From: Aliiroseovarius sp. S1123
GTDB taxonomy: Bacteria; Pseudomonadota; Alphaproteobacteria; Rhodobacterales; Rhodobacteraceae
Assembly: GCF_023015885.1 (NCBI RefSeq)
Contig: NZ_JALKBE010000007.1
Location: 1-64,000 of the forward strand
Direction of reading: 5' to 3'
DNA length: 64,000 nt
Shown here: positions 3,716 through 42,712 of the stretch, in pieces
Position numbering within the stretch: position 1 is the first letter of the stretch
How the letters are laid out: every line of letters begins with the position of its first letter
Position numbers and translations under genes: made by a program
Notes under the pieces: model-generated
The model's database searches: none
Seen by the model: the letters and a program-made list of their open reading frames with translations, nothing else
What the model was told of the DNA's origin: nothing

Positions 3716-4290
3716 ACATTATTCTTCTTGGACCGCCGGGCGCCGGCAAAGGAACCCAAGCCGCCAAGCTGGTGGAAGAGCGTGGCATGATCCAGCTGTC
3801 GACCGGTGACATGCTGCGGGAAGCCAAAGCCTCGGGCACTGAGATGGGCAAGAAAGTTGCCGCCATCATGGACGCGGGCGAGCTGGTCACAGACGAGATC
3901 GTCATCGGCCTGATCGAGGAAAAGCTGGAAGGCGACACCGGAGGCGGCTTCATCTTCGACGGCTTCCCCCGCACGCTGCCTCAGGCGGATGCTCTGGGTG
4001 CGCTGCTTGAGAAGCATAATCAGACGCTGGACGCTGTTGTCGAAATGCGCGTGGATGACGAGGTGCTGGTTGGCCGTATCGTCGGCCGCGCCGAGGAAGC
4101 CCGCAAAGCAGGTCAGCCTGTGCGCGCCGATGACAACGAGGAAAGCCTGAAGATCCGTCTGATGGAGTACTACAAGAAAACCTCGCCGCTGATTGGCTAC
4201 TACTGGGCCAAAGGCGACCTGAAGTCGGTCAACGGTCTGGGCACCATCGACGAAGTACAGGGCGAAATCGCCGAGGTTCTGGGCGCCTGA
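3712..4290 (+). CDS. adk: adenylate kinase, short-lid form
   Basis: A 192-residue adenylate kinase, which interconverts ATP plus AMP with two ADP in the cytoplasm. The P-loop [10 protein letters not shown] is at residues 7-16, the AMP site [10 protein letters not shown] near residue 83, and the LID region follows [13 protein letters not shown]. The LID is short and lacks the four-Cys zinc site of longer bacterial enzymes, which accounts for the small size. The start overlaps the secY stop. A strong hairpin terminator follows at 4316. Confidence 0.97.
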
Positions 4291-4315
4291 TCCAGACGCC
4301 ATAGATGAGTTTCCA

Positions 4316-4352
4316 AGCGCCGCGGCACTATCGCGGCGCTTTGGGTTTTTTT
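4316..4352 (+). terminator. intrinsic terminator after adk
   Basis: A 9-bp stem AGCGCCGCG / CGCGGCGCT (4316-4324 with 4332-4340, loop 4325-4331) is followed by a run ending in seven T's. It separates the rplO-secY-adk unit from rpsM-rpsK-rpoA-rplQ. Confidence 0.85.
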
Positions 4353-4580
4353 AGGGCCGGGCCGGGGTGTTCAAAATGCTTGGCACTATGATGGGTTGAC
4401 GAACTGTTCAAACCCGAGTAACTCACCCCATCCCTTACGGGAATCGGTGTGTCTGCGGGGTCGCTCCCTGAACCACACCAGACTAGAGAATTCAGCGCGG
4501 CCCGCAGGAATGATCCGGCGGGCTTACGTTGTGAAAAAAGGTTCCGGAGCTACGGAACCGCAACGAAAAGGAAAGACTAC
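4353..4580 (+). promoter_or_regulatory. rpsM leader region with hairpins
   Basis: This stretch of about 230 bases has no convincing gene. It must hold the promoter of the alpha operon, since a terminator closes the upstream unit. Two stems are visible near its 3' end: CCCGC/GCGGG (4501-4505 with 4518-4522) and GGTTCCG/CGGAACC (4540-4546 with 4553-4559). The latter ends about 20 bases before the rpsM start. Such leaders often carry ribosomal-protein feedback sites, but that is inference here. Confidence 0.4.
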
Positions 4581-4949
4581 GTGGCACGTATTGCTGGCGT
4601 AAACATCCCGACCCACAAACGGGTCCCGATCGCCCTGACCTACATTACCGGTATCGGCCATACTTCGGCTGCTGCTATCTGCGAAGCTGTGAACATCGAC
4701 GTTACCCGTCGCGTGAACGAACTGTCGGACGCTGAAGTTCTGGCAATTCGCGAGCACATCGACGCAACCTACACCGTTGAAGGTGACCTGCGCCGTGAAA
4801 CTCAGATGAACATCAAACGTCTGATGGATCTGGGCTGCTACCGCGGTCTGCGTCACCGTCGTAACCTCCCTGTTCGTGGTCAGCGTACCTCGACCAACGC
4901 ACGTACTCGCAAAGGCCCCGCAAAGGCCATTGCTGGTAAGAAGAAATAA
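4581..4949 (+). CDS. rpsM: 30S ribosomal protein S13 (GTG start)
   Basis: A 122-residue S13, which sits in the head of the small subunit and contacts P-site tRNA and helix 42. The start is taken as GTG at 4581 because AAAGGAAAG precedes it and the family begins exactly at (M)[14 protein letters not shown]. The longer in-frame extension from 4449 is leader sequence. The helix-hairpin region ([13 protein letters not shown]) and the basic tail [24 protein letters not shown] are typical. The first gene of the rpsM-rpsK-rpoA-rplQ operon. Confidence 0.97.
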
Positions 4950-32648: not shown

Positions 32649-34031
32649 GTGTTCAACACTCTTTCCGGCCGTTTCCTGATCCTGACGACTCTGTTCGTCA
32701 TGCTGGCCGAGATTTTGATCTTCGTGCCCTCGGTCGCGCGCTTTCGGGCGGATTACCTGCAAGACCGGCTGGAGCGGGCGCAGATCGCGTCCTTGGCGTT
32801 GCTTGCCGATGACATGATCGCGCCGGAACTGGAAGCCGAGCTTCTGGAAAACGCCGAGGTCTATAACGTCGTTCTGCGCCGCGATGAGATGCGCGAACTG
32901 ATGTTGTCGTCGACCCTGCCCGGAGCGGTCACCCACGATTATGATCTGCGCGACGCATCCGCGATGACCCTGATCCGCGACGCGATGATGCGTCTATTCA
33001 ATCCCGAACCCGAGGTGATCCGCGTCATCGGAGACCCGGTCCGCGAGGGCGGTCTGGTGATCGAGGTCACCATGTGGACCGCCAAGCTGCGGGCTGCAAT
33101 GATCGATTATGGTCTGAATATTCTTCTGCTCTCCGCGGTGATCTCGGTCATCACGGCGCTTTTGCTATTCCTTGCAGTTCAGCGCCTGATCGTGCGCCCG
33201 ATCAAGGGCGTTGTGGGCAACATGAAAGCCTATGCCGCCGATCCCGAGGACGCGCGGCGCATCATTTCTCCGGCGACCAGTGTAACGGAACTGCGCGAGG
33301 CAGAAGTCACCTTGCGCAGTCTGCAAACGGATTTGACGAGCGCGCTGAGACAGAAAGAGCGGCTGGCGCAACTGGGCGGTGCAGTCGCCCGGATCAGCCA
33401 TGACCTGCGCAATGTTCTGACCACGGCCCAGCTGTTTGCCGACCGGATGGAAAGCAGCGAGGATCCCTTGGTGAAACGGGTTGGTCCTAAGCTGATGAAC
33501 TCGATCAGCCGTGCGGTTAGTCTGTGTGAAAACACTCTGGCCTTCGGAAAGGCAGAAGAACCTGCGCCGACCATGAACCGCTTCAATCTGGCTGCGTTGA
33601 CCGCGGACATCATCGAAAGCGAGCGCCTGTCGGCAGGCGATCACGACCTGTCCTTTGCCGAGGATATCCCCGCCGGGCTGACTTTGCGGGCCGATCCCGA
33701 GCAACTGTATCGGGTGCTCTCAAACCTGGTGCGCAACGCGCGTCAGGCCATCGTGGCCTCGGGCAAACCGGGCGAGATTGCTCTGCAAGCCAGCGAAACC
33801 GAAACCAATTGGCAAATCCGCGTGGTGGATACCGGGCCGGGGCTGCCCAAATCTTCGCAAGACACGCTGTTCCAGCCCTTTGCCGGCACCAATCGCAAAG
33901 GTGGGTCCGGACTGGGCATGGCAATCTCGGCCGAACTGGTGCGTGGGCATGGCGGCACGCTTACGCTAGAGCGCACCGACGAAACTGGCACTGCCTTCCT
34001 GATCACCCTGCCGCGCAATATCGCAGAGTGA
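32649..34031 (+). CDS. membrane sensor histidine kinase (orphan, GTG start)
   Basis: A 460-residue sensor kinase. TM1 (about 8-28), a periplasmic sensor of about 120 residues, TM2 (about 154-178), HAMP (about 178-235), and a HisKA-like segment with the phospho-acceptor His251 in ARISHDLRNVLTTAQ. The ATPase domain has NLVRNARQAI (N box), DTGPGLP (G1) and GGSGLGMAI (G2). The start is GTG 32649; GAGGGCGCGCAG lies upstream. No response regulator is adjacent, so its partner lies elsewhere. Its position just after the VTT/oxidoreductase pair suggests a linked stress or envelope role, as inference only. Confidence 0.9.
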   Translation: MFNTLSGRFLILTTLFVMLAEILIFVPSVARFRADYLQDRLERAQIASLALLADDMIAPELEAELLENAEVYNVVLRRDEMRELMLSSTLPGAVTHDYDLRDASAMTLIRDAMMRLFNPEPEVIRVIGDPVREGGLVIEVTMWTAKLRAAMIDYGLNILLLSAVISVITALLLFLAVQRLIVRPIKGVVGNMKAYAADPEDARRIISPATSVTELREAEVTLRSLQTDLTSALRQKERLAQLGGAVARISHDLRNVLTTAQLFADRMESSEDPLVKRVGPKLMNSISRAVSLCENTLAFGKAEEPAPTMNRFNLAALTADIIESERLSAGDHDLSFAEDIPAGLTLRADPEQLYRVLSNLVRNARQAIVASGKPGEIALQASETETNWQIRVVDTGPGLPKSSQDTLFQPFAGTNRKGGSGLGMAISAELVRGHGGTLTLERTDETGTAFLITLPRNIAE

Positions 34032-34040
34032 ACCGCAGGC

Positions 34041-34070
34041 AAAGAAAAGGGGCCGCCTGGGCGACCCCTT
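34041..34070 (-). terminator. intrinsic terminator after the fasciclin gene
   Basis: A stem AAGGGG/CCCCTT (34047-34052 with 34065-34070) continues with an inner CGCC/GGCG. On the minus strand it is followed by a T-rich tract (complement of AAAGAAAA), so it terminates the fasciclin gene and lies between convergent genes. Confidence 0.7.
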
Positions 34071-34093
34071 GCCTGCCGTGAGGGGGGAAAGCT

Positions 34094-34579
34094 TTAGCTT
34101 TCTGGGGGCAGGATCACGCTGTCGATCACATGGATCACACCGTTCGAGGCTTCGATATCTGCTGCAATGACGTTTGCGCCCTGAACGGTCACGCCCGACA
34201 TGGTGCCGATTTTAACTTCAGCGCCTTGAACTGTGGCGGCCATCATGCCGTCCGACAGATCGCCGGACATCACTTTGCCGGGGACCACGTGGTAGGTCAG
34301 GATCGACACCAGCTTGTCCTTGTTTTCCGGCATCAGAAGCGTTTCGACGGTGCCTTCGGGCAGGGCGGCAAACGCGTCATCGGTGGGGGCGAAGACGGTG
34401 AAGGGGCCGTCGCCCTTCAAAGTGTCAACCAGACCGGCGGCCTGTACGGCGGCGACCAAGGTGGTGAAGCTGCCTGCGCCGACCGCAGTATCGACGATGT
34501 CTTTAGAATGGTCATCTGCGAAGGCCGGGGCGGCAAAGGCTGCGGCAGCGGTGACGGCAATGAAAGTACGACGAAGCAT
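34094..34579 (-). CDS. secreted fasciclin (FAS1)-domain protein
   Basis: A 161-residue protein. ATG 34579 follows AAGGAGATCAAC and gives a signal peptide ([21 protein letters not shown], cleavage near residue 21). A single FAS1 domain (about 25-160) follows, with the conserved H1 region [39 protein letters not shown] and the YHVVPGKV segment, ending with [16 protein letters not shown]1 proteins mediate adhesion or cell-surface interaction and are common in marine Rhodobacteraceae. It is unrelated in function to the dehalogenase gene upstream. Confidence 0.93.
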
Positions 34580-34672
34580 GTTGATCTCCTTGTTGTCAGA
34601 TACAAGGAGTACGGGGGGCTTTCGGGTTCGGATCACCGGTTCAGATGACGTTTCTGTGAGGGGCGCGTGAGG

Positions 34673-37600
34673 CTACAGATCCAGCGCAATCTCTCCGCCC
34701 GGGTCTTTCGCACGGCTTTGGCACAGGATCATCGCACCCTCGCGCTGGGCGTTGGACAGGACGAAGTCGCGGTGCTCGACATCGCCCGCCAGCACGCCGC
34801 ATTTACACACACCGCAGATCCCGTCCGAGCATTTGACGTCGACATGGAACCCGGCGTCGTTCAAGGCGTCCGCCGCCGTCTGGTCTTCCGAAACCGCGAT
34901 CGTGCGGCCATCCTTCAGACGCAGAGTGAAGGGATGGTTTTCATAATCCGGTTGTTCGGGCACGCTGAAATATTCCAGATGCCGCGCGTCCTCGGGGATG
35001 CCTTGGCGTTCCGCAGCCTGCATCACCGCGTCCATATAGCGATCTGCCCCACAGGCATAAACATGCGCGCCTTCTGGGGCGTCTGTGAACACAGTATCAA
35101 AATCCGCTCGGCTGCCTTCGTCCGAGAAATGCAGATGCACCTTGTCCGCCCACGGCATCGCCGCCAGATCATCCAGATACCCCGCATCCTTCCGGCTGCT
35201 GGCCGAGTAATGCAGCGTGAAATCGGCACCAAGCGCGTGCAGGCGGTGCGCGAAGGCAATCATCGGGGTGATGCCAATGCCGCCGCCCATCAGGAAGGTC
35301 TTGGGCGCATCCTCGACCAGTTCAAAATGATTGATGGGGTGCGAGACGAAGACCTTGCGGCCCTCGGTGAAGATGCGGTGCAAAAGGGCCGAACCGCCAC
35401 GCCCCTCGTCTTCGCGCAGGACGCCGATCTGATAGCGGCTGCGGTCAGCCGGATCGCCGGACATCGAATACTGCCGCAAGAAATCCGGCGAGACGAGCAC
35501 GTCCAGATGCGCCCCGGCGGTCCATGCGGGCAGGTCGGATCCGTCCAACGTGGACAGCTCGTATTTCGTGACGCCCGGCGTCATCTGCTCGATCTTCGAT
35601 AGGGTCAGTTGCAGGACCGGGCTGTCGTCCGGCACCACATAGCGGTGGACCATCGACATGTCCCCGCGCGCCTTTCGCTCGCGGTACTCCTTGGCCGAGA
35701 TCAGCGCGTCATAGGCAGCAATCCCCGCCTCGCGATCCATCGGGAACGGGTAGGGATAGGGCGGCGGGGCCAGCGGCGCGGGATAGGTGGCGAGGGTTTG
35801 GTCCTCGGGCTTCAGGTCAATCTCGCGCTGAAGGTCACGGCGGTTCGTAGGTTGCACAGGCGCGTGGTATCCGCCATCCTCGCCAAGCTCCAAATCCCAC
35901 CACCATTTCTTGACCTCGTTCAGCCCGCCATTGCCAACCGCATCATCGAGCTTCGCCAAAACAGGCGCCGCGCCGGGAAGGTTCGAGGCCGCCCAGCGGA
36001 ACGGTGTCTGAGAAAACAGCCCTTCAAGGTTCCACGGGCAGGTCTTCATACAGCGCCCACACATCGCGCCGCCCGGCTGGGTCACGCGATAGGTGGTGCA
36101 TTTTTGGCTGTCGGATTTCCAAATCTCATAGCCGTTGAACATCTTCTTCGGCCCGGCGGTAATCGCGCCCGAGGGGCATTCCCGCGCGCATTTGTTGCAA
36201 GCCTCGCAGAAGCGCTGCAGGCCGAAATCAATCGGCTTGTCATGGGCCAGCGGCATGTCGGTTGTCACCGCGCCGGATTTCAGGCGGGGGCCAAGTAGGG
36301 GATGCAGAATAACCTCGCCTATCCGGCTGATCTCGCCCAATCCGGCAAGAAGCAGAAGCGGCGGTTGCAGCACCGTGCCGTCCATCACTGTATGCGCCTT
36401 GGCCGAGTAGCCAAGATTGCGGATCTGCTGGGCGATGACGCCGCCAATCAAGGAAAACCGCAGATAGGCGCGCATGGATTGGCTGACCGCGATCCAGTCA
36501 TCGCCGGACGCGCCCTCCATCGTTTCAAATCCCTGATCCACGATCATGGAAATCGCGTTGTTGTGGGGCGGCACGATCTCGGCCCCCGTCGCGTCGTGGC
36601 TGTACCAGACCCAGTCGGGGCAGCGGCTGGTGCCCGCCGCGTCGATCCCAAGGAAATAGCTGGCGGCACGCAGCGCGGCGGCGTTCTGTTCCGCATCCGT
36701 TGGGCGTGCGCCGTCGGCCACGGGGCCGTCTTGCAGTGGCGTAAAGACCCCAAGCGCGCGGCGCTGGGCATAGCTGGGGGCAGCTTTGCGCACATACATC
36801 CCGCCCGAGGAGCTCTCGTGCAGGTGCTTACCCATGTCGCCAAACTGTGCGCGGGCGAACATGTCAGAGCGTTTTGGCACGCGGGCAACGTTTTCTTCGT
36901 CGATATAGGATGTGGGCTGGTCGACACGCTTCAACCGCTCGAAGGGTAGCGGGCCTTGAGCGTAGTCGCGCCGCGCATAGGGATCACGGTTCAGGCCAGA
37001 TTTCGCGCTGTCCATGCCCAGCGTCCACCGCAAACCAGTCATGTTCGACTGTTCCGCCTCGGGGGCAAGGGGGCGGTCGGCCGTGTTCTCAAGATCGGTG
37101 GTGACGACGGCAATGCCGAAATGGTCCCCGATCCACGGGGCACGTGGGCCGTCCGGCGTTGCCCATGTCAGCCCGGCTTGCACGGACAGTCGAGACATCC
37201 AGACATCGCTGGCCGCACCCGTGTGGGCCTTCGCGTCGAACCCCAGAAGCCGCAGATAATTCGCAATGACGATGGCGGTTTCCGAGGACAGAAGACAGGC
37301 GCGGTGATCCTGCGCGTCCATGATCCAATCCGCGCCCGGCTCGTCCGGGCGGGGCTCGCGGTGGTGTTCGTACAGAAAGACTATCGCATGGCTGTGACCC
37401 GACACGGGGCGGATGCCGGCAGACAGGCTTTCCTTCAGCTCGGCCATCAGCGTGTCGATGCCAGCGGCCAGCGTCCGGACCTCGCGCGTCTCTAAGGCGG
37501 TGACCAGCTCTTGAATGCCGGGGTTCTCGGCGGGCGTGTCGCGCAGCGCGTCCGCGTCCAGCCGCGTGATGCCAACCATCGACGCGTCCGCGAAATAGCC

Positions 37601-37870
37601 AAAGGCTTTCAGGTGACGGGCGCGCGCGTCTGGATCATCGGGAATGGTCGAGCGGGTTGGATTGACCTCTCCGTCCCGGATCGCGTCCAGCGCCGCCTGA
37701 TAGGGGGCCATTGCGTTGACAAGGCTTTCGGGGCGGTCGGGCCGGTCAAAGGACAGGTGCGGGTCCGGGGCAAGTTGATCCAGTCCTGCCGCCGTATCGC
37801 AACGGTGCAAGCGTTCAAGCGGGTAGGGGCCCAGATCCACGGGCCGATTGCGGGTCGAAAACAAGCGCAT
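34673..37870 (-). CDS. rdhA: self-sufficient reductive dehalogenase (RdhA fused to FMN/2Fe-2S reductase)
   Basis: A 1065-residue protein. The first 620 residues form a cobalamin-dependent reductive dehalogenase core built from two related halves (KAHTG near 215, KAHTV near 491). The clusters are C555-x2-C558-x2-C561-x3-C565-P and C591-x12-C604-x2-C607-x3-C611-P, the RdhA pattern. There is no Tat signal and no RdhB anchor gene, so it is a cytoplasmic catabolic type like BhbA and NpRdhA, which remove halogen from aromatic acids or phenols. The C-terminal 330 residues resemble phthalate dioxygenase reductase: flavin motif RQYSMSG (799-805), NAD(P) loop GGGIGITPM (862-870), and 2Fe-2S ligands C1014-x4-C1019-x2-C1022 and C1050. 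It lies behind a TetR gene on the same strand. The substrate is unknown. Confidence 0.9.
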   Translation of the reverse strand: MRLFSTRNRPVDLGPYPLERLHRCDTAAGLDQLAPDPHLSFDRPDRPESLVNAMAPYQAALDAIRDGEVNPTRSTIPDDPDARARHLKAFGYFADASMVGITRLDADALRDTPAENPGIQELVTALETREVRTLAAGIDTLMAELKESLSAGIRPVSGHSHAIVFLYEHHREPRPDEPGADWIMDAQDHRACLLSSETAIVIANYLRLLGFDAKAHTGAASDVWMSRLSVQAGLTWATPDGPRAPWIGDHFGIAVVTTDLENTADRPLAPEAEQSNMTGLRWTLGMDSAKSGLNRDPYARRDYAQGPLPFERLKRVDQPTSYIDEENVARVPKRSDMFARAQFGDMGKHLHESSSGGMYVRKAAPSYAQRRALGVFTPLQDGPVADGARPTDAEQNAAALRAASYFLGIDAAGTSRCPDWVWYSHDATGAEIVPPHNNAISMIVDQGFETMEGASGDDWIAVSQSMRAYLRFSLIGGVIAQQIRNLGYSAKAHTVMDGTVLQPPLLLLAGLGEISRIGEVILHPLLGPRLKSGAVTTDMPLAHDKPIDFGLQRFCEACNKCARECPSGAITAGPKKMFNGYEIWKSDSQKCTTYRVTQPGGAMCGRCMKTCPWNLEGLFSQTPFRWAASNLPGAAPVLAKLDDAVGNGGLNEVKKWWWDLELGEDGGYHAPVQPTNRRDLQREIDLKPEDQTLATYPAPLAPPPYPYPFPMDREAGIAAYDALISAKEYRERKARGDMSMVHRYVVPDDSPVLQLTLSKIEQMTPGVTKYELSTLDGSDLPAWTAGAHLDVLVSPDFLRQYSMSGDPADRSRYQIGVLREDEGRGGSALLHRIFTEGRKVFVSHPINHFELVEDAPKTFLMGGGIGITPMIAFAHRLHALGADFTLHYSASSRKDAGYLDDLAAMPWADKVHLHFSDEGSRADFDTVFTDAPEGAHVYACGADRYMDAVMQAAERQGIPEDARHLEYFSVPEQPDYENHPFTLRLKDGRTIAVSEDQTAADALNDAGFHVDVKCSDGICGVCKCGVLAGDVEHRDFVLSNAQREGAMILCQSRAKDPGGEIALDL

Positions 37871-37887
37871 GTCGGTCGTCCATTTTA

Positions 37888-37909
37888 CCGGGCAGATCGG
37901 CTGGCCCGG
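37888..37909 (-). promoter_or_regulatory. hairpin in the rdhA leader
   Basis: CCGGGC/GCCCGG (37888-37893 with 37904-37909, 10-base loop) lies between tetR and rdhA, about 18 bases before the rdhA start. It could stabilise or modulate rdhA mRNA. The tetR-rdhA gap is only 106 bases, too short for a full cobalamin riboswitch. Confidence 0.4.
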
Positions 37910-37976
37910 TCAGGTCTTTAAGGTGCTAGAATACCCAAAGCATGGATGGAAAACAGACGCTAGAAGAAAATTGGAT

Positions 37977-38594
37977 TCAATATCCGTTCCGTGTGCGAAA
38001 ACGCCGGATCTCGCTGTTCGACGGGGTTTGACCGGTGAAAAGCTGGACATAACGCGGGACGCGGTCGATCCGGCCGGTAGGGTCCTCTTTGATCTCCATC
38101 GCGATATAGCCGACTTGCGTGTACAGAATGGTCATGGTCCTGACCTCGGCATCATCCGGGGTATAGCCGTAGCGCTCGAACATGGACTTAATGGCAGCTT
38201 TGCGCAGGGCGTCAGCGGCTTCCACCCGTCGCTTCAGCTCCGGATCATGGTCGGCCCAATTTCGAATGGCGCGATCAAGCTGTGCGTCGAACAGGTCATT
38301 TTGGAACCAGCAATCTTGCAGGTTGAACATCGCCTCACAGATCGTCTCGGCATAGAGCGCGCATTGGGCGACCAGATTGCCGGTGTTCTTGTCCTCCCAC
38401 CGTTTAATCATAGCGTCCAGCAGCGCCTCGCGGTCGCGGAAGTGGTGGTAAAATCCGGTGCGCGTCAGGCCCAGGCGTTTTGCCAACGGGAGGATCTTCA
38501 CACCGTCCACTCCGGCTTCAAGCAGCAGGTCAAGCGCTGCATCAAGCCACATGCGTTCCGAGGCGCGCGGGCGGGGTATGTCGTTTTTAGCCAT
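37977..38594 (-). CDS. TetR/AcrR-family regulator of the rdhA region
   Basis: A 205-residue TetR-type regulator. The N-terminal helix-turn-helix (about 12-58) includes LDAALDLLLEAGVDGVKILPLAKRLGLTRTGFYHHFRDREALLDAM. The ligand-binding C-terminal domain is divergent and holds ENLQDCWF-like aromatic residues (here MFNLQDCWFQNDLFD). It is encoded directly upstream of and in tandem with rdhA, and divergent from the methyltransferase gene at 38681. The 86-base intergenic region has a perfect palindrome, its probable operator. It plausibly represses both directions until a haloaromatic or methylated amine ligand binds. Confidence 0.9.
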   Translation of the reverse strand: MAKNDIPRPRASERMWLDAALDLLLEAGVDGVKILPLAKRLGLTRTGFYHHFRDREALLDAMIKRWEDKNTGNLVAQCALYAETICEAMFNLQDCWFQNDLFDAQLDRAIRNWADHDPELKRRVEAADALRKAAIKSMFERYGYTPDDAEVRTMTILYTQVGYIAMEIKEDPTGRIDRVPRYVQLFTGQTPSNSEIRRFRTRNGY

Positions 38595-38614
38595 AGTCTC
38601 GCATCATAGGTGAC

Positions 38615-38630
38615 TTGACACATGTGTCAA
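38615..38630. promoter_or_regulatory. perfect 16-bp palindromic operator
   Basis: TTGACACATGTGTCAA is a perfect palindrome, centred 28 bases before the tetR start and 58 bases before the methyltransferase start. The size and position fit a TetR-dimer operator controlling both divergent promoters. The outer flanks GGTGAC (38609-38614) and GTCACC (38638-38643) form a further dyad. Confidence 0.75.
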
Positions 38631-38636
38631 ATCAGA

Positions 38637-38651
38637 TGTCACCTGTGTCAA
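38637..38651. promoter_or_regulatory. second, imperfect operator-like site
   Basis: TGTCACCTGTGTCAA repeats the right half of the main operator (TGTGTCAA) 21 bases further on, about two helical turns, with an imperfect left half. It may be a secondary TetR site near the methyltransferase promoter. Confidence 0.5.
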
Positions 38652-38680
38652 CTATGCGACTCATGACAAGGGAGGACGTG

Positions 38681-40240
38681 ATGAGCGAACCCAGCACAGG
38701 ACGGCGGCGCAGCCGTGGAAAGCGGGAGGCACGCGATGGTGCGCCAGGGCAGAACCCGCATCTGGAGCGTCCGTATATCAAGCGCGGCATCCCTACTTAC
38801 GACATCCTTGGTGAAGACGCGTTGCAGCAGATCGAGGCAACAGCCGACCGCATTATGGCCGAGATCGGTATCGAGTTTCGCGATGATCCCGATACGGTCG
38901 AGATGTTTCGCAAGGCCGGCGGTGAGGTCACGCAGCTGGACGACACGCGGTGGAATATCAAGTTCGCGCCCGGCATGATCCGCGAGATCCTGAAGACAGC
39001 ACCGGCGGTCTTTACTCAGCACGCCCGCAACCCTGCCAACAATGTCGAAATCGGCGGGGACAATGTGGTCTTTGCGCCCTCGTATGGCAGCCCTTTCGTG
39101 ATGGATCTGGACAAGGGTCGCCGCTATGGCACGCTTGAGGATTTCCAGAACTTTGTGAAGCTGGGTCAGATGAGCCCGTGGCTGCACCACTCCGGCGGCA
39201 CGGTGTGCGAACCGACCGATGTGCCGGTGAACAAACGCCATCTGGATATGGTCTATGCACATATGCGCTATTCCGACCGGCCGTTTCTTGGCTCGGTCAC
39301 CGCGCCAGAACGCGCCGCCGACAGTGTCGAGATGTGCCGCGTGCTGTTCGGCGCGGATTTCGTCGACCAGAACTGCGTCATCATGGGGAACTTCAACACC
39401 ACCAGCCCCTTGGTTATGGACGGGATCACGACGCAGGGCATTCGCGAGTATGCCAAGGCGGGGCAGGGCTCGATTCATTTGCCGTTTTTGCTGGGCGGGG
39501 CGGTGTCGCCTCTGACGATGGCTGGGTCCATCGCGCAATGTCTGGCGGAAAGCATGGTGTCCTGCGCGGTGGCACAGCTGGAACGTCCGGGCGCACCGGT
39601 GGTTCTGGCAAGCTTTCTCAGCTCGATGTCGTTGCGCTCGGGTTCACCGACATTCGGGACGGCAGAGCCCGCGGTGGGCAGTCTGGTCTATGGCCAGCTG
39701 GCACGCCGCTTGAACCTGCCACTTCGCTGTGCGGGCAACTTCTCGACCTCGAAACTTCCCGATGCACAGGCGATGCAGCAGGCGATGATGTCGATGATGT
39801 CGGCGGTGCAGTGTGGGGCGAATTATCTGCTGCACTCGGCGGGCTTCTTGGATGGGCTTCTGTCCATGTCCTACGAAAAATTCATGCTGGATCTGGACCT
39901 GTGTGGCGCGCTGCATTCCTATTACGATGGGGTCGTGGTGAACGAGGATACGCTGGGCTTTGACGCGTTGGCCGAAAAAGGACCGGGTGAGCATTTGTTC
40001 TCAACCGCCCATACTTTGCGGCACTACAAAACCGCCTATTACGACAGCGCGCTGGACGACAATCAGCCGTGGGAGACATGGGACGAACAGGGAGAGATTG
40101 ACATGGCGACCCGTGCGAACCAACGCTGGAAGGCGCAGCTTGCGGCCTATGAGGCGCCCGCGATGGATCCAGCAACGGACGAGGCGCTGAAGGACTTTGT
40201 CGCACGCAAGAAGGCCTCGATGGAAGATGCTTGGTATTAA
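38681..40240 (+). CDS. MttB-superfamily corrinoid methyltransferase homologue (non-pyrrolysine)
   Basis: A 519-residue member of the trimethylamine methyltransferase (MttB) superfamily. No in-frame amber codon is needed, so it is of the glycine-betaine-methyltransferase (MtgB-like) kind, without pyrrolysine. ATG 38681 follows GGGAGGACGTG; a TTG frame from 38615 would cover the operator. The N terminus is basic (GRRRSRGKREARDG). Conserved parts are LHHSGGTVCEPTDVPVNKRH, GNFNTTSPLVMDGITTQGIREYAKAG and NYLLHSAGFLDGLLSMSYEKFMLD. Relatives transfer a methyl from quaternary amines to a corrinoid protein. No corrinoid protein (MttC-like) is encoded in the window. Confidence 0.85.
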   Translation: MSEPSTGRRRSRGKREARDGAPGQNPHLERPYIKRGIPTYDILGEDALQQIEATADRIMAEIGIEFRDDPDTVEMFRKAGGEVTQLDDTRWNIKFAPGMIREILKTAPAVFTQHARNPANNVEIGGDNVVFAPSYGSPFVMDLDKGRRYGTLEDFQNFVKLGQMSPWLHHSGGTVCEPTDVPVNKRHLDMVYAHMRYSDRPFLGSVTAPERAADSVEMCRVLFGADFVDQNCVIMGNFNTTSPLVMDGITTQGIREYAKAGQGSIHLPFLLGGAVSPLTMAGSIAQCLAESMVSCAVAQLERPGAPVVLASFLSSMSLRSGSPTFGTAEPAVGSLVYGQLARRLNLPLRCAGNFSTSKLPDAQAMQQAMMSMMSAVQCGANYLLHSAGFLDGLLSMSYEKFMLDLDLCGALHSYYDGVVVNEDTLGFDALAEKGPGEHLFSTAHTLRHYKTAYYDSALDDNQPWETWDEQGEIDMATRANQRWKAQLAAYEAPAMDPATDEALKDFVARKKASMEDAWY

Positions 40241-40248
40241 CGTGGGAA

Positions 40249-40307
40249 GGGGGCTTTGCCCCCGCGTCTGCGACGCTCCCCCAGGATATTTGTGACAAGA
40301 AAATGCG
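40249..40307 (+). repeat. dispersed intergenic repeat, copy B
   Basis: A GGGGGC-TTT-GCCCCC hairpin is followed by a short GCGTC/GACGC arm and the core at 40278-40303. Bases 40283-40307 are identical to 60358-60382. It lies between the methyltransferase stop and the next gene, so the two genes may still be co-transcribed through it. Confidence 0.85.
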
Positions 40308-40337
40308 GGTAAGAAAGCCCCAAGCCGAGAAGGATGG

Positions 40338-42383
40338 ATGATGTCGAACGATCCACTTTTGCAGCCGTATCAATTGGGGCATCTGACCCTGAGAAACCGG
40401 ATCATGACCACCAGCCATGAACCGGCCTATCCCGAGGATGGGATGCCGAAAGCGCGCTATGCGGCATATCATGCTGAACGGGCCAAGGCAGGTGTGGCGA
40501 TGACCATGACGGCGGGGTCAGCGGCCGTTTCGAAGGACAGTCCGCCCGTTTTCAACAACATCCTCGCCTATAAGGACGAGGTTGTGCCGTGGATCCGTAA
40601 TCTGACTGATGCGGTGCACGAACATGGCGCGGCTTGCATGATTCAGCTGACCCATTTGGGGCGGCGGACGGGGTGGAACAAGGGCGAGTGGTTGCCGCCC
40701 GTCTGTTCAACGCCGCATCGCGAACCTGCCCACCGCGCCTTCCCGAAAATGGCCGAGGACTGGGATATATCGCGGATTATTTCCGACTTCGCGGATGCGG
40801 CCGAACGGATGAAAGAAGGTGGCATGGATGGGGTTGAGGTGATGACCCACGGGCATTTGCTGGACCAGTTCATCTCGCCCCTGACCAACCGCTTGGACGG
40901 CCCCTATGGCGGCGATCTTGCCGGGCGGATGAAGCTGACGATGGATATCATTGAAGCCGTGCGCACCCGCGTGGGACGTGAGTTCATCGTGGGCGTCCGC
41001 TTTGCGCCTGACGAGGTTGAATCCGGCGGAATTGATCCCGATATGGGGCTGGAGATCGCGCGGATGCTGCGCGACTGCGGGCATGTGGATTATCTGAACA
41101 TCAACCGGGGCCGCATTCATACGGATCCCGCGATGACCGACATGATCCCCATTCAGGGTGCGCCTGCGTCTCCGCATTTGGATTTCGCGGGGCGGGTCCG
41201 CAAAGAGGTCGGGATGCCCACCTTCCACGCCGCGCGCATACCGGATGTCGCGACCGCGCGTCACGCGGTGGCCTCTGGCCAGTTAGACATGGTCGGTATG
41301 ACGCGCGCGCATATGGCTGATCCGCATATCGTGAAGAAGATCATTGAAGGGCGGGAAGAGGATATTCGCCCTTGCGTCGGTGCCACCTACTGTCTGGACC
41401 GGATTTATCAGGCCGGCGATGCGCTCTGCGTGCACAACGCGGCCACGGGGCGCGAGCTGACCATGCCGCACGAGATTGCCGCTGCAGACACCCCCCGCAA
41501 AGTGGTGATCGTGGGCGCGGGGCCTGCGGGGCTTGAGGCCGCGCGGGTAGCCGCCGAGCGTGGTCACGATGTGACCGTCTTTGAAGCACAGCCTGATCCC
41601 GGTGGACAGGTGCGTCTGACCGCGCAGACGCCGCGTCGGCGCGAGATGATCGGTATCGTCGACTGGCGCATGGCGCAATGTGCGGCCCGCGATGTCACCT
41701 TCCATTTCAACACATGGGCCGAGGCCCATGACGTGACCGCCCTGAACCCCGATGTGGTGATCGTTGCCACCGGTGGTTTGCCGAACCTTGAACTGTTCGA
41801 GACCAAGGGCGAGCAGGATTTGGCGGTCAGCGCGTGGGACGTGATCGCGGGCGACGTGAAATGCGCGGGTGATGTGCTGATCTATGACGAAAGCGGCGAC
41901 CATCCGGCGCTGCAAGCCGCCGAGATCGCTTCTGAAGCCGGTGCGAATGTCGAGGTGATGACCCCGGACCGCGTCTTCGCCCCCGATATCATGGCGATGA
42001 ACCTTGTGCCCTATATGCGGTCGCTGCAGCCTAAGGGTGTGCGGTTCACTGTGACCGAACGCCTGAAAGACATTAAGCGCGACGGTAACCGCCTGAGGGT
42101 CACACTGGGCACGGATTATTCCGAGTTCACGCGTCAAGCGACCTATGATCAGGTCGTTGTGAACTATGGCACGATGCCGATGGATGATCTGTATTTCGAC
42201 CTGAAAGAGCTCTCATCCAACCGGGGTGAAGTGGACCACAACGCCCTGATCGAGGGACGTCCGCAGGCCATCAACACCAATCCCGACGGGCATTTCCAGC
42301 TTTTCCGGATCGGCGACGCGGTGTCGGCACGCAATACGCATGCCGCCATCTATGACGCGCTTCGGTTGGTGAAAGACCTGTAA
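40338..42383 (+). CDS. Old-Yellow-Enzyme-type N-demethylase (DgcA/StcD/TMADH family)
   Basis: A 681-residue flavoprotein. It has an FMN TIM-barrel of the NADH:flavin oxidoreductase family (about 1-345), a cluster region, then an FAD/NAD(P)-binding half (IVGAGPAGLEAARVA at 391-405). This is the layout of trimethylamine dehydrogenase, dimethylglycine demethylase DgcA and stachydrine demethylase StcD. The cluster Cys read C346-x2-A349-x2-C352-x11-C364, so one of the four usual ligands is Ala. Barrel marks include LTHLGRR (104-110), HGHLLDQFISPLTNRL and GMTRAHMADPHIVKK. It lies 97 bases after the MttB-like gene and probably acts on the same class of methylated amines. Confidence 0.85.
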   Translation: MMSNDPLLQPYQLGHLTLRNRIMTTSHEPAYPEDGMPKARYAAYHAERAKAGVAMTMTAGSAAVSKDSPPVFNNILAYKDEVVPWIRNLTDAVHEHGAACMIQLTHLGRRTGWNKGEWLPPVCSTPHREPAHRAFPKMAEDWDISRIISDFADAAERMKEGGMDGVEVMTHGHLLDQFISPLTNRLDGPYGGDLAGRMKLTMDIIEAVRTRVGREFIVGVRFAPDEVESGGIDPDMGLEIARMLRDCGHVDYLNINRGRIHTDPAMTDMIPIQGAPASPHLDFAGRVRKEVGMPTFHAARIPDVATARHAVASGQLDMVGMTRAHMADPHIVKKIIEGREEDIRPCVGATYCLDRIYQAGDALCVHNAATGRELTMPHEIAAADTPRKVVIVGAGPAGLEAARVAAERGHDVTVFEAQPDPGGQVRLTAQTPRRREMIGIVDWRMAQCAARDVTFHFNTWAEAHDVTALNPDVVIVATGGLPNLELFETKGEQDLAVSAWDVIAGDVKCAGDVLIYDESGDHPALQAAEIASEAGANVEVMTPDRVFAPDIMAMNLVPYMRSLQPKGVRFTVTERLKDIKRDGNRLRVTLGTDYSEFTRQATYDQVVVNYGTMPMDDLYFDLKELSSNRGEVDHNALIEGRPQAINTNPDGHFQLFRIGDAVSARNTHAAIYDALRLVKDL

Positions 42384-42385
42384 GC

Positions 42386-42712
42386 TTAAGCCTGCTGCGT
42401 GCGTTCGATATACGCGCGCAGCTCTTCAGCTTCGTGGCGGGCGTCGCGTAGACCGTCCATCGCGGCGCGCAGCTCCGCCTCGGTCTGATACAGCTGGTTG
42501 GCCATCTCGGCCTCGCGCGATTGCAGATAGGTGATCGCCTCGTCGCGGGTTTCTTCCGCGTCGTGAAGCGCCTGCGCCATCTTGTCCAGCTCGCTCATTT
42601 CGCTGCCCTGCACCTGCACGAAGCGATGGATCAGCCAGTGGGCAAACCAACCCAGCACAAAGGCCACGAAAAGAATAATGGCGGTAACGATGATAAACTC
42701 GGTTCTGTTCAT
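42386..42712 (-). CDS. small membrane-anchored coiled-coil protein
   Basis: A 108-residue protein. One N-terminal helix (FIIVTAIILFVAFVLGWFAHWLI, about 5-27) is followed by a strongly charged, Glu/Ala-rich coiled coil (about 38-106, MSELDKMAQALHDAEETRDEAITYLQ). No named domain is recognised. It lies 22 bases downstream of the OmpA-family gene on the same strand, so the two may form an operon with an envelope role. It ends two bases from the stop of the convergent demethylase gene. Confidence 0.7.
   Translation of the reverse strand: MNRTEFIIVTAIILFVAFVLGWFAHWLIHRFVQVQGSEMSELDKMAQALHDAEETRDEAITYLQSREAEMANQLYQTEAELRAAMDGLRDARHEAEELRAYIERTQQA

Follow-up and report, generated by a model that had tools for sequence, protein, structure and literature searches.

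This study concerns a 64,000-nucleotide stretch of DNA from Aliiroseovarius sp. S1123 (contig NZ_JALKBE010000007.1, positions 1 to 64,000; hereafter the window), and within it a gene, rdhA, in which a reductive dehalogenase (RdhA) is fused to a reductase. The open reading frame (ORF) occupies 34673-37870 on the minus strand, encodes 1065 amino acids (aa) and has an ATG start and a TAG stop; on the plus strand the same interval is interrupted by 4 stops. A first-pass annotation of this DNA had placed an ORF exactly there, leaving the strand unstated. Identities given below as 79/79 refer to an alignment of the window protein with 78 of 82 loci from other sources (77 relatives' loci and 5 plasmid loci). 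The gene contains the following parts.

34673..37870, minus strand: rdhA-reductase fusion gene (TIGR02486 above cut-off; relatives across the entire length)
37070..37636, minus strand: degenerate second cobalamin-binding domain at the N-terminus, which in catabolic RdhAs is called the 'vestigial' duplication (TIGR02486 and NpRdhA matches)
37400..37549, minus strand: 50-residue insert relative to NpRdhA, residues 108-157 (alignment to 4ras)
35933..36580, minus strand: RdhA core, residues 431-646 (TIGR02486; NpRdhA and PceA matches)
36464..36466, minus strand: Tyr469, equivalent to NpRdhA Tyr426 (4ras alignment; identical in 79/79)
36278..36280, minus strand: Lys531, equivalent to NpRdhA Lys488 (4ras alignment; identical in 79/79)
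36086..36088, minus strand: Arg595, equivalent to NpRdhA Arg552 (4ras alignment; identical in 79/79)
36176..36208, minus strand: cluster motif C555-C558-C561-C565 (identical in 79/79)
36038..36100, minus strand: cluster motif C591-C604-C607-C611 (identical in 79/79)
34676..35632, minus strand: reductase domain of the phthalate dioxygenase reductase (PDOR) type, residues 747-1065 (2pia; phmmer E 4.2e-51, Foldseek E 2.5e-32)
35462..35476, minus strand: flavin motif RQYSM, residues 799-803
35261..35287, minus strand: nucleotide-binding motif GGGIGITPM, residues 862-870
34721..34831, minus strand: [2Fe-2S] ferredoxin motif C1014, C1019, C1022, C1050 (PF00111; identical in 79/79)

The in-frame fusion of an RdhA core to a reductase, as first annotated, is real. 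The NCBIfam reductive dehalogenase profile TIGR02486 scored 197 bits (cut-off 160.35), with its best stretch at residues 431-646, and phmmer against PDB sequences paired residues 1-107 and 158-728 with NpRdhA (4ras, E 6.7e-158) and residues 747-1065 with PDOR (2pia). Pfam recognised Fer2 (PF00111) and 4Fe-4S domains. A second, weak TIGR02486 match (29.3 bits) lay in the N-terminal half, and the catalytic core also aligned with residues 73-222 of NpRdhA, which belong to the vestigial half of that protein; these alignments mark the N-terminal half as a degenerate duplicate of the core. The insert was 49-50 aa long in all 79 aligned fusions, BhbA included, and is absent from NpRdhA. The twin-arginine (Tat) motif is taken as RRxFxK; none was found in the first 60 residues, nor was there a hydrophobic N-terminal segment. 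The earlier statement that the protein has no export signal therefore stands on both counts, and its sequence makes a cytoplasmic location likely.

The gene is intact and under purifying selection. Other genomes contain whole-protein relatives with 47-95% identity at more than 70 loci, as do 8 plasmid records; the closest (91-95%) are in Aliiroseovarius genomes. When the window gene was compared with seven copies from Aliiroseovarius, dN/dS was 0.056-0.133. With full-length relatives and so low a dN/dS, a chance ORF or a pseudogene is unlikely. The gene is also single-copy, a genome-wide TIGR02486 scan having given a single place above the cut-off.

The residues on which function would depend are conserved. 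All eight cysteines that the first-pass annotation had assigned to two iron-sulphur clusters are in place and invariant. In a 33-sequence alignment, R799, Y801 and S802 were invariant within RQYSM, which we take to be the motif that binds flavin mononucleotide (FMN), as were G863, G864, I865, G866 and P869 within GGGIGITPM, presumably the nucleotide-binding motif. Phe338, Ser465 and Met466 were likewise invariant; they are equivalents of further NpRdhA active-site residues, which in the available part of PMC10463259 include F291, while Tyr426, Lys488 and Arg552 are named there as key residues (this and the other papers cited by PMC number are quoted from partial texts).

A model built by AlphaFold2 from 33 sequences had a mean predicted local distance difference test score (pLDDT) of 77.6 and a predicted template modelling (TM) score of 0.78. 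Foldseek against the PDB returned NpRdhA chains at ranks 1-14 (E 5.9e-61 to 3.0e-58, 39-40% identity, TM(target) 0.88-0.89), so that the comparison with NpRdhA suggested in the first annotation came out in its favour, its top match having E 5.9e-61 and TM(target) 0.88. The next matches, to the reductase part, were two self-sufficient P450 fusions (PDR-type) and then 2pia. In a tree of the core (34 rows), the window protein lay within Aliiroseovarius (support 98/96), inside a group of 31 that contained BhbA and NpRdhA (97/95); of the 31 inner branches 17 were open, and QueG and PceA sat on very long branches. The core thus groups with NpRdhA and BhbA rather than QueG, as anticipated, with weakly resolved deep branches. 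Because these deep forks are poorly resolved, we preferred profile scores.

As far as they can be tested in sequence, the features that define the group of self-sufficient catabolic RdhAs (BhbA and JtRdhA) are all found in the window protein: an RdhA core, a C-terminal PDOR-type reductase, a vestigial copy, no Tat signal, two [4Fe-4S] motifs, the Tyr/Lys/Arg set and the NpRdhA fold. Membership of that group agreed across the sequence, the structure model, the residues and the published work on JtRdhA (PMC10463259, in part). We conclude that the product of the window gene is very probably a self-sufficient catabolic reductive dehalogenase, cytoplasmic and driven by NADPH, that acts on ortho-halogenated phenols.

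By analogy with its characterised homologues, the cofactors, electron route, NADPH preference and bromo- and iodophenol substrates of the enzyme would be as follows. NADPH would pass a hydride to FMN in the C-terminal reductase domain, and single electrons would then run through the [2Fe-2S] cluster and the two [4Fe-4S] clusters to base-off cobalamin in the core domain. There the cobalt would engage an ortho-halogenated phenol at its halogen, and a proton would come from Tyr469, together with Lys531 and Arg595, giving halide and the dehalogenated phenol. The direct use of NAD(P)H proposed earlier is consistent with the reductase fusion and its motifs and with the NADPH dependence of JtRdhA, and brominated phenols remain plausible substrates since JtRdhA debrominates phenols (PMC10463259, in part). 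The claim that the host could dehalogenate 'an organohalide' was too broad: it may hold for bromo- and iodophenols, and we narrowed it to these because, in the same partial text, chlorinated compounds inhibited JtRdhA and none was turned over. As to cobalamin supply, CobN and two cobalamin riboswitches were identified in the host genome, which makes B12 synthesis likely.

Three points weigh against this assignment. In the structure model pLDDT fell below 50 across much of the cofactor region, for example at residues 562-588 and 601-610, so the model leaves the domain arrangement unestablished. The 79-sequence alignment omits 4 of 83 sequences (L079 and L080, which are partial; L072, split in two ORFs; and L073, which failed the motif filter), and the filter used to collect the sequences relied on motifs close to the sites tested. 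Finally, the window holds no conserved partner gene for rdhA.

Two other identities for the protein were considered. Epoxyqueuosine reductase (QueG), or a QueG-like enzyme fused to a reductase, would have the same cobalamin and two-[4Fe-4S] fold as RdhA, and the QueG profile TIGR00276 did give a weak match; its score was, however, 23.9 bits against a cut-off of 200, whereas TIGR02486 exceeded its own. A separate 368-aa protein on contig C15 of the host genome (TIGR02486 38.7 bits, weak) was taken by eye for the host's QueG, and the core tree, long and weakly resolved as its deep branches are, put the window protein with NpRdhA and BhbA. We regard QueG identity as excluded by profile score, its probability being close to nil. 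A respiratory, energy-conserving reductive dehalogenase might be proposed because the PceA of two PDB entries matched the core. Such an enzyme is hardly any more probable, being ruled out by the missing signal and the architecture: the window protein has neither a Tat signal nor a hydrophobic segment, and has a fused reductase and a vestigial copy, while inspection by eye of the nearby ORFs of at least 100 aa revealed no RdhB-like gene.

Upstream of rdhA, the window contains a regulator and a divergent pair of genes.

37977..38594, minus strand: TetR-family regulator, upstream of rdhA across a 106-bp gap (Pfam)
38603..38630, minus strand: weak sigma-70-like promoter match upstream of tetR, TTGACA-16-TATGAT, 11/12
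38615-40240, divergent from tetR: MTTB-family methyltransferase (trimeth_pyl 228.7 bits, below the cut-off of 525)
40338-42383, divergent from tetR: old yellow enzyme (OYE)-type flavoenzyme

The MTTB and OYE genes (38615-42383) are possibly a quaternary-amine demethylation unit, and the host genome has three MTTB-family genes. The promoter match, counted once against 1.1 expected in shuffled sequence, could be a candidate promoter for tetR and might also drive rdhA. We matched no Rfam elements in 33500-42500, and the DNA upstream of rdhA was seemingly conserved among nearest relatives only. The regulator probably belongs with the divergent MTTB-OYE unit rather than with rdhA: at L006 and L008 it is separated from rdhA but still adjoins MTTB, and at L007 and L009 rdhA is retained while tetR, MTTB and OYE are all missing from the stretch around it. 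On the evidence of those two loci we do not take the TetR-MTTB-OYE block to be the main context of rdhA. The wider site, with a histidine kinase and a lipoamide-dehydrogenase-like gene on one side and OmpA and UbiA-like genes on the other, was kept in nine loci (L004-L010, L026, L052) and not in Aliiroseovarius sp. KMU-50 (L012).

We then surveyed the 82 loci, taking up to 10 kb each side of rdhA as gene-neighbour stretch. Neighbour lists made by longest-ORF or GC-by-codon-position calling were unsafe in detail, as they hid a sulfatase gene at L006, L007, L008 and also L065. Regulators near rdhA varied by lineage. MarR-type genes occurred at L041, L042, L050, L055, L059, L062, L089 and L092; the L055 regulator matched Pfam MarR, and its best NCBIfam match, HpaR (homoprotocatechuate regulator), was below cut-off. 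In several Ruegeria-group loci a LysR-type gene lay directly upstream of rdhA, confirmed by Pfam LysR for L068. Genes for phenolic catabolism lay within 10 kb of rdhA in some loci: pobA in 4/82 (L027, where NCBIfam confirmed it, L035, L088 and L091, the source of the query), and hmgA, fahA and maiA together in 3/82, as follows.

L055:13214-19286 (source of the query): homogentisate cluster (hmgA, fahA, maiA)
L063:13824-17006: homogentisate cluster (hmgA, fahA, maiA)
L077:13829-19978: homogentisate cluster (hmgA, fahA, maiA)

At L055, where a PRK08132-type FAD monooxygenase lies among the three genes, each of the three scored above its NCBIfam cut-off. At L063 (Roseobacter sp. HKCCD6576-2), a 355-aa protein with glutathione-transferase domains (3742-4809) ends 39 bp before the rdhA ORF. 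The window's own genome carries an hmgA-maiA-fahA cluster on contig C15, with a PRK08132-type FAD monooxygenase nearby, and no pobA above cut-off. On contig C18 of the same genome (locus L097, 37309-38280) an HPPD-like domain below cut-off lies inside a 638-aa protein, whose best match was QuiC (3-dehydroshikimate dehydratase; 498.6 bits, cut-off 1200) and which by eye adjoins an AroE-like ORF.

In 8/82 loci, and in about four arrangements, rdhA has a sulfatase-family gene touching it or no more than 3 kb away on its own strand. These genes were located first by inspecting ORFs on that strand that terminate where rdhA begins, then by tblastn. In four Aliiroseovarius loci a 551-558-aa ORF ends no further than about 3 bp from the start of the rdhA match.

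L006:8326-9999, same strand as rdhA: sulfatase-family ORF
L007:8343-9998, same strand as rdhA: sulfatase-family ORF
L008:8322-9998, same strand as rdhA: sulfatase-family ORF
L012:8337-10001, same strand as rdhA: sulfatase-family ORF

Relatives with 61-68% identity to the L006 protein followed rdhA directly at L065 and L072 and preceded it by 2-3 kb at L043 and L058, again on the same strand; at L063 rdhA and hmgA have a sulfatase-like gene of another kind between them. No sulfatase-family gene stands beside the window's own rdhA. The L006 and L065 proteins matched Pfam Sulfatase (PF00884), the active-site motif was CGASR or CGSSR, those N-termini that were inspected by eye had no exported look, and the closest solved structure was 4upl, a 'sulfatase family protein' (E 1.1e-235). 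Every NCBIfam equivalog score was below cut-off (the best, PehA, a phosphoric/sulfuric ester hydrolase, 296 for L006 and 291 for L065 against 900), and we therefore left the substrate of these sulfatases unassigned.

Red algae contain lanosol-4,7-disulfate and 3,5-dibromotyrosine (PMC9322897, in part), and sulfated or brominated compounds of this kind would suit a pair of sulfatase and rdhA. The gene context suggests that the natural substrates are bromophenols or bromotyrosine derivatives from algae, with sulfated forms among them. In such a pathway the sulfatase would strip sulfate esters, RdhA would strip bromine at the cost of NADPH, and the resulting phenolic acid would pass to homogentisate or protocatechuate cleavage. 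The likely role of RdhA would be to make halogenated phenolic acids accessible to ring-cleavage pathways, in the Aliiroseovarius host by the homogentisate route, since hmgA is present and pobA gave no match above cut-off; in the window's lineage any sulfatase and catabolic genes would work from elsewhere in the genome. That the fusions of marine Rhodobacterales carry out debromination within a widespread aerobic pathway, with sulfatase and ring cleavage, by which algal bromophenols and bromotyrosine-type compounds are degraded is a tentative proposal that we consider rather unlikely. For marine Desulfatiglans, the available part of PMC6129605 treats dehalogenases and sulfatases as separate abilities.

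Several counts tell against reading function from this context. We measured distances from the best rdhA place in the 80 less fragmented of 152 rdhA-bearing genomes; these may overlap the organisms of the named loci, so the two sets are not additive. Only 2/80 had hmgA within 10 kb of rdhA (640 bp and 5.4 kb) and only 2/80 had pobA (247 bp and 362 bp). The probability of two or more, with uniform placement in a 4-Mb genome and uncorrected, was 0.051 for hmgA and 0.038 for pobA. The sole clearly unusual proximity was pobA within 1 kb, in 2/61 pobA-bearing genomes (4.5e-4, uncorrected). Across genomes, hmgA was present in 72/80 rdhA-bearing and 43/80 rdhA-lacking genomes (39/69 at 90% completeness or more); the Fisher test for 72/80 versus 39/69 gave 3.5e-6, a value confounded by relatedness and by the choice of sets. 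The rdhA-lacking set was the first 80 of 242 genomes without a match, 60 of them inferred to lack the gene by absence among the matches. Nor is the sulfatase family dedicated to rdhA: it appeared in 66 plasmid records at E up to 1e-100, and on the Yoonia plasmid NZ_CP151764 the sulfatase and the rdhA fusion are about 43 kb apart. As the family is common without rdhA, the link between the two genes is suggestive only.

Two other roles for the enzyme draw on these neighbourhoods. MTTB-type and RdhA-type enzymes both use corrinoids, and MTTB lies within 10 kb either side of rdhA at 12/77 loci, seven of them Aliiroseovarius, which might tie rdhA functionally to the adjacent MTTB and OYE genes, possibly of quaternary-amine demethylation. 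We consider this improbable: the MTTBs of the remaining five loci are only 32-36% identical, and the L007 and L009 stretches keep rdhA without tetR, MTTB or OYE. The chemistry could also be as proposed and the role be detoxification of bromo- and iodophenols, or halide recovery, instead of carbon use. In favour of this, regulators and neighbours vary from lineage to lineage, the window gene is not embedded in a catabolic operon, hmgA or pobA lies within 10 kb in only 4/80 rdhA-bearing genomes, and JtRdhA handles iodinated phenols well (PMC10463259, in part). In some genomes, by contrast, rdhA adjoins hmgA-fahA-maiA or pobA, and BhbA belongs to a bromoxynil-degradation cluster (same partial text), both of which favour catabolism. 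We judge detoxification or recovery a possibility to be taken seriously, if on balance an unlikely one, and a catabolic role remains the reading we prefer.

Reductive dehalogenation is commonly seen as a form of anaerobic respiration; here, a soluble, probably NADPH-driven enzyme occurs in about two-fifths of the sampled family genomes. At E up to 1e-100, rdhA was matched in 152/394 of these (142/347 of good quality), and the fusion in 20/21 Aliiroseovarius genomes, two of them partial; most of the fusion was also matched in 8 plasmid records. At L072 (4406-8040), from a metagenome bin, rdhA is split in two ORFs, for which assembly error or decay is possible. With this prevalence, the enzymes may have a part in the aerobic cycling of bromine and iodine from metabolites of seaweed and from brominated pollutants, and the neighbourhood data make the natural substrate testable. 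The finding is less new than the first-pass annotation implied: the enzyme class has already been biochemically characterised, bhbA homologues are stated to be widespread in the Roseobacter clade (PMC13101508, in part), and 152/394 genomes carry rdhA. We found no prior paper on a dehalogenase in Aliiroseovarius in a search of open-licence literature, which is weak evidence of absence.

Among known systems, JtRdhA of the marine Jhaorihella thermophila, another species, as described resembles the window protein in its vestigial domain, RdhA core, PDOR-like reductase, Tyr/Lys/Arg residues, marine source and lack of a Tat signal; the description extends to an insert of the fusions relative to NpRdhA. 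In the available part of PMC10463259, JtRdhA uses NADPH, FMN, one [2Fe-2S] and two [4Fe-4S] clusters and base-off cobalamin with tight coupling, works with and without air, and accepts brominated and iodinated phenols, working well on the latter; the chlorinated and fluorinated compounds tested were non-substrates, the chlorinated ones being inhibitory. A Roseobacter-group enzyme argues for caution about oxygen. Ros_A3X954 (Roseobacter sp. MED193), also a marine catabolic reductive dehalogenase without a Tat signal, debrominated 2,6-dibromophenol to 2-bromophenol in assays with methyl viologen/Ti(III) citrate and was reported to be highly oxygen sensitive, data not being shown in PMC13101508 (in part); given this reported loss of activity on exposure to oxygen, the oxygen tolerance earlier stated for catabolic RdhA proteins is not safe to assume for the window protein.

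BhbA (Comamonas sp. 7D-2, WP_015585978) is, as first annotated, a fusion of the same kind, full-length and 48.4% identical over 100% of the query, with an insert of the same length class. It differs in setting: bhbA lies on plasmid pBHB, typed as conjugative, with genes for protocatechuate 4,5-dioxygenase and transporters next to it, whereas no cluster of that kind accompanies the window gene, which is surrounded by genes retained in most related loci of the genus. NpRdhA (Nitratireductor pacificus; PDB 4ras, 6zxu, 6zxx, 6zy0, 6zy1) shares the core and vestigial domains and the catalytic residues, at 39-40% identity in structural alignment, but has neither the reductase domain nor the 50-residue insert. 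The precedent drawn from it earlier thus holds for the core and not for the fusion (PMC10463259, in part), and NpRdhA is usable as a model of the core only. The reductase module itself recurs in 2pia and in the self-sufficient P450 fusions 6kbh and 6laa, where it is free or joined to other catalytic domains.

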